Assembly (NCBI GenBank): GCA_947447975.1
Contig: CANFLU010000001.1
Location: 124,001 to 188,000 of the forward strand
Direction of reading: 5' to 3'
DNA length: 64,000 nucleotides
From: Comamonadaceae bacterium
Lineage (GTDB): Bacteria > Pseudomonadota > Gammaproteobacteria > Burkholderiales > Burkholderiaceae_C
Every line of letters starts with the position of its first letter. The stretch's first letter is position 1. The notes beneath the pieces were generated by a model that did no database searches, was not told the DNA's origin, and saw nothing but the letters and a program-made list of their open reading frames with translations. The position numbers and the translations under genes are program-made. Of this stretch, positions 44,176-60,921 are shown piece after piece.

Positions 44176-44883
44176 ATGCGCAATACGGCAATAGAGACGG
44201 AGGTTTTGGCTTTCGATATCTTTGGCACCGTGGTGGACTGGCACGGCAGTATTGCGCGTGAAATCCGTGCCGCGCATCCAGCCGTCGATGCTGATGCGTT
44301 TGCGTTGGCCTGGCGCGCAGGCTACCAACCGGCCATGCACCGCGTGATGGCGGGCGAGCTGCCTTGGACCTTGATTGACGATTTACACCGCATGATTTTG
44401 GACGAGGTAGTGGTTCAGTTCGGCCTGACCCATTTGGATGAGACTGCGCGCGCCGACCTCAACCGCGTATGGCACCGGCTGGACCCCTGGCCCGATGTGG
44501 TGCAAGGCCTGACGCGTCTGAAAAAGCGTTTTGTCCTTTGTACCCTGTCCAACGGTAACCTCAATTTGCTCACCCGCTTATCCAAGCGGGCGGCCCTGCC
44601 TTGGGATTGCATTTTGAGCGCTGAAGTGTTTCGCGCCTACAAGCCCGACCCGCGCACTTATCTCGGCGTGGCGCAGACCTTTGACGTGCTGCCTGAACAG
44701 GTGATGCTCGTGGCCGCCCATCACAACGATTTGGAGGGGGCCCGCGCCTGCGGCCTGCAAACTGCCTATATCGAGCGGCCCCTGGAGTTGGGTGCGCGTA
44801 ACCCCAAGGATGTGACCCCGCACCTTGCCAACGACATGCATGCGCGTGATCTGCTGGATCTGGCGCAGCAGCTGGGCTGTTAA
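44176..44883 (+). CDS. Haloacid dehalogenase type II family protein
   Basis: A 235-residue HAD hydrolase. Motif I FDIFGTVVDW (Asp about 14), motif II CTLSNGNLNLLTRLS, lysine in YKPDPRTYLGV and VAAHHNDLEGARACGLQTAY. It resembles L-2-haloacid dehalogenases but may have another role. Its stop overlaps that of metW on the other strand by 3 bp. Confidence 0.87.
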   Translation: MRNTAIETEVLAFDIFGTVVDWHGSIAREIRAAHPAVDADAFALAWRAGYQPAMHRVMAGELPWTLIDDLHRMILDEVVVQFGLTHLDETARADLNRVWHRLDPWPDVVQGLTRLKKRFVLCTLSNGNLNLLTRLSKRAALPWDCILSAEVFRAYKPDPRTYLGVAQTFDVLPEQVMLVAAHHNDLEGARACGLQTAYIERPLELGARNPKDVTPHLANDMHARDLLDLAQQLGC

Positions 44884-45461
44884 CGCGCTAGTTTGTACAC
44901 CGACGTGCCGGCGCGCCAGTTGGGCAGCCAGCGGACGACCTCGCCATCTTGCAGGCCAAAACTGTCGATCACGCGCAGGCCGTTCTTGCGCGCTAGCGCG
45001 CCTAGATCGGCATGCGTGCCGACGCGGATATTGGGCGTGTCATACCACTGGTAGGGCAAACGCTTGGTCACGGGCATACGGCCTTGCAGCACGCTAAAGC
45101 GATTGGGCCAATGCGCAAAATTGGGGAAGGCCACAATGCCCAGTCGCCCTACCCGTGCGGTTTCGCGCAACATGACCTCGGCATTGCGCAAGTGCTGTAA
45201 GGTGTCGATTTGCAGCACCACGTCAAACGAGGCGTCGTCAAACATGGCCAGGCCTTCGTCCAGGTTGAGCTGGATCACATTGACGCCGCGTTGCACGCAG
45301 GCCAGCACGTTGGCGTCGTCGATTTCAATGCCATAGCCGCTACAGCCACGGGTGGCTTGCAAATGCGCCAGCATGGCGCCATCGCCGCAACCTAGATCGA
45401 GCACGCGTGCGCCTTCGGGCACCAGTTGCGCAAGCGCGTTTTGAATAGAGAGGTCGCTCAT
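44880..45461 (-). CDS. metW: Methionine biosynthesis protein MetW
   Basis: A 193-residue SAM-methyltransferase-fold protein. Motif [16 protein letters not shown], then [17 protein letters not shown] and [20 protein letters not shown]. It is coupled to metX by a 4-bp overlap, the standard MetX-MetW arrangement, in which MetW supports the homoserine acyltransferase. Confidence 0.95.
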
Positions 45462-46612
45462 ACGCCCACCTCAGTGCCCAGGGAATCGAAGTAAGAGCGC
45501 ACCACACCGTGGTAGCGCACATCGTCGAGCAAAAAGGCGTCGTGCCCATGCGGTGCATCGATCTCGGCATAGCTGACATCGCGCTGGTTGTCCAACAGGG
45601 CTTTGACGATCTCACGGCTGCGTGACGGCGCAAAGCGCCAATCGGTGACAAAGCTGATCAGCAAAAACTTGCTGCGTGCAGCCGCCAGTGCCTTGGTCAA
45701 ACTACCGCCAAATTTGCGCGCTGGGTCAAAGTAGTCCAGGGCGCGGGTGATCAGCAAATAGGTATTGGCGTCAAAATAATCGGCAAACTTATCACCCTGG
45801 TAGCGCAAGTAGCTTTCAATTTGGAACTCTACTTCTTGGGTGCTGTAGCGGTAGTCGGCGTGGGCCGCAGCATCTTGCACCGCATGGCGTAACTGCCGTC
45901 CAAACTTGGCATTCATCACATCGTCGCTCAGGTAGGTGATGTGCCCGATCATGCGTGCGATGCGCAGGCCGCGTTTGGGCACCACCCCGTGGCGGTAAAA
46001 ATGCCCACCATGGAAATCCGGGTCGGTGGTGATGGCGCGGCGCGCTACTTCGTTAAAAGCGATGTTCTCCGCCGTCAAATTTGGGGCGCTTGCCACCGCG
46101 ACCGCGCGCCGTACGCGCTGGGGGTATCGCAAGGTCCAGGCCAGCGCCTGCATGCCACCCAGGCTGCCGCCCATCACTGCGGCGAGGGTGTCAATACCCA
46201 ATCGGTCGAGCAGGCGCGCTTGCGCGTCCACCCAGTCTTCTACGGTAACAACCGGGAAGTCGGCGCCATAAACCTGCCCATCAGCGCTGTCCGGATTGAT
46301 GTGCATCGGGCCGGTGGAGCCAAAGCAGGAGCCCAGGTTGTTCACGCCGATGACAAAGAAGCGATTCGTGTCCACCGGCTTGCCCGGCCCGATCATGCTG
46401 TCCCACCAACCTTCAGATTTGGCTTGACCTGCATAGACCCCGGCCACATGGTGTGAGGCGTTCAGCGCATGGCAAATCAACACGGCATTGGATTGGTCTG
46501 CGTTGAGCGTGCCGTAGGTTTCAAAAGCCAGGTCATAGGCGCGGATAGACGCGCCGCTTTGCAAGGGCAGTGGCGCCTCAAAATGCAGGGACTGGGATGT
46601 GGCAATCAACAT
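45458..46612 (-). CDS. metX: Homoserine O-acyltransferase MetX
   Basis: A 384-residue alpha/beta-fold acyltransferase, first step of methionine synthesis from homoserine. It has [32 protein letters not shown] and the nucleophile elbow [12 protein letters not shown]. MetX with MetW often uses succinyl-CoA in these bacteria; the donor cannot be told. The leader carries a SAM-II-like riboswitch and a terminator directly before the ATG. Confidence 0.95.
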
Positions 46613-46652
46613 AAAAAAACAAAACCCGGCAACGCTAATCGCGGGGCCGGGT
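46613..46652 (-). terminator. Intrinsic terminator in the metX leader
   Basis: On the minus strand, the stem ACCCGGC/GCCGGGT (46652-46646 with 46630-46624) and a 15-nt loop are followed by TTTTGTTTTTTT right up to the metX ATG. It lies between the SAM-II-like aptamer and the gene, so it is the likely off-switch when SAM is bound. Confidence 0.85.
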
Positions 46653-46670
46653 CAAGCAAAGATCGCGGGG

Positions 46671-46731
46671 GTCCGTGTTTAGCTGTATTTATTAAGCGCC
46701 CGCAAGCTGGAGCAAATTGGCGCTGCGGGCA
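46671..46731 (-). promoter_or_regulatory. SAM-II-like riboswitch upstream of metX
   Basis: Read on the minus strand: a 5' strand GCCCGC, a loop AATTTGCTCCAGCTT, the closing GCGGGC, and then TTAATAAATACAGCTAAA. This last block matches the conserved 3' part of SAM-II (SAM_alpha) aptamers, known upstream of metA/metX, in the H-type pseudoknot order. Loop AGCT and TCC can pair with the downstream AGCT and GGA. The -10 hexamer TATACT sits directly upstream, so the RNA would begin with the aptamer. SAM-II is best known from alphaproteobacteria. Confidence 0.72.
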
Positions 46732-46732
46732 A

Positions 46733-46738
46733 AGTATA
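46733..46738 (-). promoter_or_regulatory. -10 box of the metX promoter
   Basis: TATACT on the minus strand, about 3-8 bp before the riboswitch's first stem strand, so transcription would start at the aptamer. A clear -35 was not found at 17 bp. Confidence 0.5.
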
Positions 46739-46764
46739 GCAATGCCCGCTTGCGCATTCCCGGT

Positions 46765-47325
46765 TTAGAGGGGCAGCAGCGCCAGCGCACCCAGTAGCGC
46801 GAACACCAGCGCCGAGACGATATGCACCACACGCATCGGTACCAAACGCGTCATGCGCTCGCCCAAATAGACTACCGGCACATTGGCCACCATCATGCCC
46901 AGCGTGGTGCCGGCCACCACCCAGTAATAAGCATCAAAGCGCGCCGCCAGCATGACGGTGGCGATCTGGGTTTTATCGCCCATTTCTGCCAGGAAAAAGG
47001 CCACCACTGTCGTACCGAAAACGCCCCAACGTGGCTCCTGACCTTCCTCCTCTTCGTCCATGGTGTCGGGTATCAGCATCCAGACCGCCATGGCGATAAA
47101 CGATGCGCCCAGTACCCAGCGCAATAGCTCGGGCCCCATTACCTGGGTCAACCAGGCCCCTAGCGCACCGGCCAAGCCGTGGTTGACGATGGTGGCCACA
47201 AAAATGCCCAGCACGATAGGAATGGGTTTGCGAAAACGCACCGCCAAGATCAGCGCCAGCAGTTGTGTTTTATCGCCCATTTCGGCCAAGGCGACGATGC
47301 CCGTGGAGACCAGGAATGCTTCCAT
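46765..47325 (-). CDS. TMEM165/GDT1-family cation transporter
   Basis: A 186-residue, two-repeat membrane protein. Both repeats show the family motif E-x-G-D-K-T: LAEMGDKTQLLALILAVRF near 13 and LAEMGDKTQIATVMLAARF near 113. Members move Mn2+ or Ca2+ against H+. About six membrane segments. No Mn-sensing riboswitch is seen in the 36-bp gap ahead of it. Confidence 0.9.
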   Translation of the reverse strand: MEAFLVSTGIVALAEMGDKTQLLALILAVRFRKPIPIVLGIFVATIVNHGLAGALGAWLTQVMGPELLRWVLGASFIAMAVWMLIPDTMDEEEEGQEPRWGVFGTTVVAFFLAEMGDKTQIATVMLAARFDAYYWVVAGTTLGMMVANVPVVYLGERMTRLVPMRVVHIVSALVFALLGALALLPL

Positions 47326-59511: not shown

Positions 59512-60921
59512 ATGATTGAAGATTATTTGCCCAATGGCGATGCCGCGCCCACAGGCGATGCGGGTCAGGCCTTGTGGCATTCGTGCATGGAAAAAATGGC
59601 CATGGACATGCCCGAGCAGCAGTTCAATACCTGGCTCAAGCCCTTGACGGCCCAGGTATCCGAAGACTTCAGCAAAGTCCAGGTCATCGTGGCCAACCGG
59701 TTCAAGCTCGACTGGGTGCGCGCCCAGTACCTGGCCCCGATGGCCGCTGTGCTCGAGCGTCTGTGCGGCCAGCCGGTGCAGGTCGAGTTGGTGATCAGCC
59801 AGCGCGAAGCCCCGCCCCGCCAGGAGCTTTCGGCGCGCAGCCCCGCCGTGCGGGCCCAGGGTGCCGAAAGCCAGGCTGGCGTCGCCCCACCCGAGGCGCC
59901 CAAAAACCGCCTCAACACCATGCTCAACTTCGATAACTTGGTCGAGGGCAGCGCCAACCGCATGGCGCGCGCCGCGGCCATGCACGTCGCCACGGCGCCT
60001 GGTCACCTCTACAACCCCTTGTTTATCTATGGTGGCGTGGGTCTGGGCAAGACGCATTTGATGCATGCCGCAGGCAATCGCTTGCTTGCGGACAAGCCGG
60101 CGGCCAAGGTTTTGTACATCCACGCCGAGCAATTTGTGTCCGACGTGGTCAAGGCTTATCAGCGCAAAACTTTTGACGAATTCAAGGACAAATACCATTC
60201 CCTGGACTTGTTGCTCATCGATGATGTGCAGTTTTTTGCCAATAAGGAGCGCACCCAGGAAGAGTTTTTCAATGCTTTTGAGGCTTTGCTGGCCAAAAAA
60301 TCCCACATTGTGATGACCAGCGACACCTATCCCAAGGGCTTGACGGACATCCACGAACGCCTGGTTTCGCGTTTTGATTCCGGCCTGACGGTAGCCATCG
60401 AGCCGCCCGAATTGGAGATGCGGGTGGCGATTTTGATCAACAAAGCGCGCGCAGAGGGCGCTGACATGCCCGAAGAGGTCGCATTTTTCATCGCCAAAAA
60501 TGTGCGCTCCAACGTGCGCGAGCTTGAGGGCGCTTTGCGCAAATGTCTGGCGTATTCGCGCTTTAACCAAAAGGAAATTTCCATCCCGCTAGCGCGCGAA
60601 GCCCTAAGAGACCTGCTTTATATACAGAACCGGCAGATATCTGTGGAAAACATTCAAAAAACCGTGGCCGACTACTACAAAATCAAGGTCGCGGACATGT
60701 ATTCCAAGAAACGCCCCGCCAGTATTGCCCGGCCGCGCCAGATCGCCATGTACCTGGCCAAAGAGCTGACCCAAAAAAGTCTGCCCGAGATCGGCGAGCT
60801 ATTCGGCGGGCGTGATCACACCACGGTGCTGCACGCGGTGCGCAAAATCAGCCAGGAACGCCAGCAGGCGACCGAATTGAACCAACAACTGCATGTTTTG
60901 GAACAAACCCTCAAAGGCTGA
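59512..60921 (+). CDS. dnaA: Chromosomal replication initiator DnaA
   Basis: A 469-residue initiator. Domain [21 protein letters not shown], a linker, the AAA+ core with [17 protein letters not shown] and [20 protein letters not shown], and the DNA-binding domain IV with [15 protein letters not shown]. The frame opens at 59311 but ATG 59512 gives the true N-terminus. It begins the dnaA-dnaN-gyrB operon direction. Confidence 0.97.

Follow-up and report, generated by a model that had tools for sequence, protein, structure and literature searches.

A very probable SAM-II-type aptamer before metXW in a Comamonadaceae bacterium, with a pocket strand that may also serve as antiterminator

The SAM-II riboswitch (Rfam family RF00521, SAM_alpha, the metA element) combines a stem, P1, with an H-type pseudoknot whose pocket holds S-adenosylmethionine (SAM) (PMC1273637; PMC3764141). 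SAM-II-like elements with terminators have already been reported from betaproteobacteria (PMC1273637; PMC2258182; PMC4239095, there as metXZ), and Barrick and Breaker (2007; PMC2258182) wrote that in alpha- and betaproteobacteria SAM-II mostly appears to go with terminators, describing the mechanisms as not experimentally established. According to a 2022 paper (PMC9373788), no earlier work had examined how SAM-II affects gene expression; the paper predicts termination at Sinorhizobium meliloti metZ, where a Rho-independent terminator follows the aptamer and the riboswitch small RNA goes up under high SAM. In 35 genomes, among them 10 of 11 Comamonadaceae, Leyn et al. (2014; PMC4239095) described an element, metXZ, upstream of metX or metZ; it was published without a ligand, and SAM_alpha is reported there only in two alphaproteobacterial orders. 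Here we analyse an RNA element of this type that precedes metX and metW in a Comamonadaceae bacterium (GenBank assembly GCA_947447975.1, contig CANFLU010000001.1, positions 124,001 to 188,000), the window being this whole stretch of 64,000 nucleotides and the element lying on its minus strand around positions 46,613 to 46,738.

The window element shares with RF00521 the P1 stem and H-type pseudoknot, the pocket nucleotides, a promoter-like box 5' of P1, a target in methionine synthesis and a terminator (PMC1273637; PMC3764141). With metXZ it has in common the genes (metXW), the taxa, a two-helix pseudoknot and a terminator with its U-tract (PMC4239095), and judged by its fit to the description in that text it appears to be a metXZ element, which means that the locus is not a new kind. 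The S. meliloti metZ element differs in its alphaproteobacterial host. SAM-V has a near-identical SAM pocket and a superimposable structure (PMC6061858), but differs in its P3 helix and in its mode of action, described as translational; an Rfam scan listed no SAM-V match at the window locus up to E 10. An earlier sequence-only reading had proposed a SAM-II element of the beta class with a terminator at this place, which fits these comparisons, although such elements were already in print. We make no firm claim that the identity of metXZ with SAM-II, or the platform set out below, is unpublished; subscription journals lay mostly outside the literature searched. What the analysis adds is the likely expression platform, in which the 3' strand of the pocket is set against the apical half of the terminator.

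We propose, with a probability of roughly 0.7, that the element is a SAM-II OFF switch which controls metXW by transcription termination and whose pocket strand is the antiterminator. Transcription would start just 5' of P1, which then forms. By analogy with SAM-II, we infer that when SAM is bound the loop UUGC and the 3' strand GC(U)AA form the ligand-holding pseudoknot; GCUAAA and its flank would then be occupied, the downstream hairpin would be free to fold and the polymerase would stop in the U-tract before the ATG. Without SAM, GCUAAA and its flank would pair with the apical half of the emerging terminator, which would be kept open so that metX and metW are transcribed. The logic would be that of the usual OFF switch, but with an antiterminator strand that sits inside the ligand pocket. 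Read in the direction of metX transcription, the features concerned are as follows.

46765-47325: GDT1-type cation transporter gene (basis PF01169), separated from metX by a 152-base intergenic stretch
46733..46741, minus: extended -10 promoter-like box TGCTATACT (basis sequence); TATACT at 46738-46733 is preceded by TGC and the box therefore reads as an extended -10
46724-46673, minus: SAM-II aptamer, compact pseudoknot type, with a linker and then the terminator hairpin downstream
46719..46724, minus: P1 5' strand AGCGCC (Rfam alignment; P1 pairing and covariation in alignments A1 and A3, defined below)
46714..46716, minus: UUU in loop L1, equivalent to SAM-II U10-U12, the third pocket strand (102/102 in A3; role from PMC3764141)
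46709..46710, minus: 5' CC of the outer pseudoknot helix, which could pair with GG 46674-46673
46702..46705, minus: UUGC, 5' strand of the pseudoknot core P2 (102/102 in A3)
46695..46700, minus: P1 3' strand GGCGCU (Rfam alignment; P1 covariation)
46678..46683, minus: GCUAAA, P2 3' strand and SAM-contacting strand (G42-A47; 102/102 in A3); putative antiterminator role
46673..46683, minus: putative antiterminator 5' strand GCUAAACACGG, 9 of its 11 positions pairable with 46644-46634
46634..46644, minus: putative antiterminator 3' strand CCGCGAUUAGC within the terminator hairpin (from relatives' duplexes and partial-transcript folds)
46623..46653, minus: intrinsic terminator hairpin, GC-rich, -19.4 kcal/mol
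46613..46622, minus: U-tract TTGTTTTTTT, directly abutting the metX ATG (46612)
45458..46612, minus: metX, homoserine O-succinyltransferase type (NF047916, 640.8 bits, cut-off 560)
44880..45461, minus: metW, with a 4-base overlap with metX (TIGR02081, 228.4 bits, cut-off 189.5; PF07021)

With metX and metW identified downstream, the element stands before methionine-synthesis genes, and the nearest metX loci include those of a Comamonas sp., a Rhodoferax sp. and a Comamonadaceae bacterium. The TATACT box, the block TTAATAAATACAGCTAAA and the stem with a T-run ending at the metX ATG, all named in the sequence-only reading, are present on the minus strand as it described them. A -10-like box also stands 5' of P1 in 170 of 199 relatives' elements, by a loose pattern applied without a chance control. 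A simple scan of the window leader gave no promoter-like and no terminator-like site, and no sigma-70 promoter, for which the lack of a good -35 and the interior mismatches of the hairpin are the probable reasons; read from the sequence, no obvious Shine-Dalgarno stands before metX.

It is very likely that the window element belongs to SAM-II, and this conclusion rests on its relatives, not on the RF00521 match alone. The full Rfam model matches 46657-46733 on the minus strand with 24.3 bits (E 0.0014, 301 bases scanned) and, when searched across the 3.03 Mb genome, ranks the window first of 19 matches (E 0.0033, the next 0.073). Because all 14 of 14 control genomes also yield matches in that loose search, membership could not be settled by this hit on its own. 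We therefore lean on a covariance model, R1, made from the leaders of 56 relatives with the window's clade excluded, which gives the window 67.7 bits (E 5.4e-17, a rough value from a short calibration), within the range of the relatives. The next-best place in the genome reaches 22.3 bits with R1 (C25:21771-21861, L285), and it was rejected as a second copy, GCUAAA being absent from the stretch printed there. All 13 of the SAM-II pocket nucleotides (U10-12, U20, U21, G22, C23, G42, C43, U44 and A45-47, mapped onto the window by motif order) are found in the window, and these are described as completely conserved in SAM-II (PMC3764141). The other Rfam matches nearby (DnaX on the plus strand, 24.7 bits with a cut-off of 35; GadY; ArcZ; two microRNA families) are below cut-off and were taken as chance.

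Conservation was followed in three alignments: A1, with the 56 leaders from which R1 was made; A2, with 33 hand-chosen leaders from two classes, 14 of them from a class other than the window's (one row, L093, lacks its first 3 bases, and its coordinates are 3 off); and A3, with the R1 matches in loci chosen by RF00521. The pattern used for extraction demanded ATTTG, TTGC, GCTAAA and four P1 pairs, hence the constancy of the core in A1 and A2 (56/56 and 33/33) is partly by construction, for which reason A3 was added as a pattern-free check. There, R1 gave 102 matches on 100 loci, at least one in each, with UUU, UUGC and GCUAAA kept in every one of the 102. The P2 pairing of UUGC with GC(U)AA is present in the window and in all of these R1 matches, and because its strands are invariant covariation cannot test it; the sequence-only reading had noted a possible loop-to-3' pairing as in SAM-II. 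P1 does covary: 97.6% of cells are paired in A1, with changes on both sides at 3 of the 6 pairs, and 98.5% in A3 (98 distinct sequences), with such changes at 4 of 6. In A2, 87.1% of cells are paired vs 76.0% after shuffling, and the covariation score is 0.333 vs 0.145; 8 of 14 pairs change on both sides, a number equalled in 61 of 500 shuffles, and on each of the other four measures no more than 1 shuffle did as well. The P1 of the other class is mostly CGTGGT/GCCACG, quite unlike the AGCGCC of the window. For the outer pseudoknot helix the paired cells amount to 66.0% (A1) and 76.6% (A3). On the stem itself the sequence-only reading stood in part: the GCCCGC/GCGGGC complementarity that it named is real and occurs in the minimum-energy fold, but the conserved P1 is AGCGCC/GGCGCU. 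GCCCGC (46730-46725) is found 5' of P1 in only 2 of the 199 elements (the window and L091), its site reads differently in close relatives, and it probably lies around the transcription start.

The element is widespread in the family, where RF00521 matches 189 of 250 sampled genomes at E<=0.05 and 59 of 250 over the cut-off; at E<=0.001 the numbers are 65 of 150 genomes for the order and 35 of 200 for the phylum. With R1, 112 of 229 class genomes have a match at E<=1e-4, which in a few is only partial. A family search fetched 110 loci, of which 105 were confirmed by the pattern, and 103 of these 105 are on the metX strand, no more than 450 nt 5' of the gene. Taken from the side of the gene, 74 of 80 metX loci carry the element by pattern, and a second pattern found 73 elements among the 80, all upstream of metX. 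In the remaining 6, L075 is too short upstream (88 bases) and five (L019, L032, L034, L041 and L050) have no R1 match at E<=0.01; in L019, metX stands almost directly behind the upstream gene. The weak candidates from the bacterium's own genome (L001-L008) were dropped from later counts. Among the 18 of 241 examined loci that the pattern did not match, R1 confirms the element in L245, L068 and L173 (71.7, 67.2 and 56.2 bits), matches L225, L219 and L221, of the other class, weakly, gives 15-24 bits in L193-L195 and L075, and finds nothing at E<=0.01 in L196, L222 and L224. Spacing also varies, with 25-40 nt instead of 12 between P1 and GCUAAA in 13 of 99 leaders, mostly through what by eye is an extra hairpin (L024, L026, L028, L029, L051, L053, L057, L064, L066, L070, L073, L074 and L088); no other SAM-II-like Rfam family was listed for such leaders up to E 0.1 (15 loci scanned). 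In some of them (e.g. L026, L053, L064) the antiterminator register appears to be shifted, as in GUUCAGCU with AGCUGAAC.

An OFF control exerted by termination of transcription is likely. Of the 199 elements that make up our beta set (all elements outside L199-L227, which form the other-class set, class and family being assigned by kinship), 187 have a terminator-like hairpin followed by a T-rich tail, and hairpins of -13 kcal/mol or below occur in 181 of 199 real downstream sequences vs 9 of 67 shuffled ones. The 12 elements missed by the terminator finder were left out of the antiterminator counts; an earlier hairpin finder, also the source of the hairpin energy given for the window, chose a wrong-looking hairpin in a few rows (e.g. 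L040, L059, L079, L086). Together with the models, the P1 covariation, the pocket strands and the placement, the relatives' terminators bear out the sequence-only reading in its central point, a SAM-II-type element with a terminator before metX.

From the sequences of these leaders it seems rather probable that the pocket strand, GCUAAA with its flank, is the antiterminator. In the relatives this strand can pair with the terminator's apical half, as in GCUAAAGAC with GUUUUUAGC, GCUAAAAACG with CGUUUUUAGC, GCUAAACCCGG with CCGCGUUUGGC and GCUAAAUACG with CGCAUUUAGC, examples that have no more than one mismatch. Over 66 clusters the duplex between pocket strand and terminator has a mean of -17.7 kcal/mol for cognate partners, vs -15.0 when partners are swapped between clusters and -13.0 with shuffled terminators (Wilcoxon p 4e-6 and 2e-6 for the two swaps, 4e-11 for the shuffles). 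The motif UUU[AG]GC occurs in 78 of 187 terminators, where mono-shuffles lead one to expect 3.2. Within the terminators that hold this motif, to which the test was limited, flank positions 7, 8 and 9 are paired above permutation (p<0.001, 0.002 and 0.003; 5000 permutations, 51 distinct pairs), with 29, 26 and 29 Watson-Crick pairs vs 16.7, 19.6 and 20.4 in the permuted sets; at position 7, G-C, G-U, C-G, U-A and A-U are all seen and 45 of 51 are paired. Other clades seem to use a shifted register, for example GGACGCC with GGUGUCC in L093. When transcripts are folded to 5 nt into the 3' arm of the terminator, at least 3 of the 6 core bases pair with the terminator in the minimum-energy structure of 159 of 187 leaders, compared with 23% of mono-shuffled ones, and leaders of the window's own clade fold in this way in 18 of 18 cases tried. 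The antiterminator structure is lost if the pocket strands are blocked as they would be by SAM, in folds under hard constraints that covered 9 leaders, the values for the window being -25.7 free and -15.6 blocked. A mutually exclusive antiterminator on the ligand-bound strand is supported across the relatives and weak in the window taken alone. For metXZ in general, we consider it on balance probable that it is SAM-II and that its SAM-contacting strand is the antiterminator, with terminators that have co-evolved in several registers.

Several results weigh against this reading. Beside RF00521, the window has a score below the gathering cut-off of 36, which is a curation threshold, and a short outer helix, the covariation of which is weak (p 0.024). 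At position 8, where 180 of 199 elements have G, the window and 18 others have A (in the other-class set L226 also has A, and the alignments of L219, L221 and L225 show no G), and the window therefore lacks the G8 of the G8-C23-G42 base triple in the SAM-II crystal structure, a triple that is not among the two called fully conserved in the text of that study (PMC3764141). As to the antiterminator, the clusters are related and the p-values therefore optimistic; the cognate duplex is matched or beaten by a median of 23% of alternatives when terminators are swapped and 28% when strands are swapped, and for 12 of the 66 clusters the same holds of over 20% of the shuffles. The same permutation test finds no covariation at flank positions 10-12, and UUU[AG]GC is absent from all 21 terminators in the other-class set, from which it follows that the arrangement may be a trait of the window's lineage. 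In full-length folds without ligand, 8 of 10 leaders, including that of the window, prefer the terminator, and only L093 and L192 keep the antiterminator, so that for most leaders the switch would have to be kinetic. In the window itself 2 of the 11 antiterminator positions are mismatched, and equally good folds arise from 337 of 1000 mono-shuffled versions of that hairpin. Finally, the terminator duplex formed with the TTGC and P1 3' strand equals that formed with the core (-12.8 vs -12.4 over 187 leaders, the core being better in 85 of them), and in the window it is the stronger of the two (-16.2 vs -11.7).

This last comparison bears on the possibility that the RNA is a SAM-II switch whose antiterminator comes from the GC-rich TTGC/P1 3' side instead of the GCUAAA strand, and PMC4239095 indeed speculates on an antiterminator from metXZ regions 3 and 4, which would correspond to this side. 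Such an antiterminator needs P1 to be opened, however, and the pairing appears in 10 of 187 whole-transcript folds vs 159 of 187 for the core; the strand also hardly varies and offers no covariation, while the core flank does covary. Because of the opening of P1 and the covariation of the flank we favour the core flank, and regard the TTGC/P1 side as an unlikely antiterminator. Less probable still is an aptamer that is real but acts mainly on translation, by a hairpin that abuts the ATG and hides the start region, as proposed for the Sargasso Sea metX SAM-II; this would agree with the position of the U-tract directly against the ATG, with the lack of an obvious Shine-Dalgarno and with the dual platforms described in PMC2258182 where a hairpin is near the start codon, but it sits poorly with terminator-like hairpins and T-rich tails in nearly all relatives, and with terminators that in some of them (L042, L058) end well upstream of the metX start. 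A decayed aptamer in the window's clade, which has lost SAM binding and left a constitutive attenuator, is very improbable: the A at position 8, the low Rfam score and the 5 of 79 metX loci with enough upstream sequence that lack the element could be read in this way, whereas the pocket is complete and the R1 score lies within the relatives' range. We retain a SAM-II OFF switch with an antiterminator on the pocket strand as the most probable reading.

Some further observations concern other elements. Tandem SAM-II-like elements 40-60 nt apart are found in 5 of the 112 genomes with R1 matches (L280:248-421; L281:767-595, minus; L282:280-452; L283:283-466; L284:294-456), and a pair 96 nt apart in L173:422-201 (minus). 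The terminator of the first tandem element holds GCUUUAGC or GCUUUGGC in 4 of the 5 genomes, and by eye a hairpin behind some of the second elements may mask the Shine-Dalgarno region, in which case control could be double. The genes that follow were seen in 4 of the 5 genomes (L286-L289): metF and metH-like genes in one (PF02219, PF02574, B12-binding); an AAA/MoxR-type ATPase, with a VWA-type gene further on, in a second; a protein of no family and a calcineurin-like phosphoesterase in a third; and no family in the fourth. L153 has SAM-II-like elements on opposite strands (391-448, minus; 613-672, plus), not before metX. The Bp2_287 family (RF02424, cut-off 70) matches weakly on the strand opposite the leader, with 16.4 bits at 46621-46760 (plus) in the window and 25-35 bits in five relatives (L281:668-790, L282:248-379, L283:262-389, L280:232-340, L043:1359-1494), and was not found at E<=0.01 in 14 other loci; this family may rest on the reverse strand of SAM-II leaders. 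In a Ramlibacter locus a manganese riboswitch (RF00080, 78.8 bits; L055:487-666) precedes the SAM-II element by about 0.7 kb, and none is over the cut-off in the window. An AsdA antisense RNA match at 60028-60108 on the minus strand has 52.9 bits (cut-off 52), and its plus strand looks by eye like the Walker A part of dnaA, so that protein conservation may explain it. The same genome has two SAH riboswitches (RF01057) over the cut-off, at C4:109626-109714 and C2:1383-1474 (56.5 and 55.3 bits).

With 59 of 250 genomes over it, the Rfam cut-off omits many likely members of SAM-II in the family. The analysis gives the orphan metXZ RNA of betaproteobacteria a likely ligand, and the 189 of 250 genomes with a match at E<=0.05 suggest that methionine synthesis is under SAM-II control in a large part of the window's family. 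It also offers a simple platform, in which one strand would either hold SAM or keep the terminator open, and if true, this pocket-strand antiterminator would answer how transcriptional SAM-II switches work.
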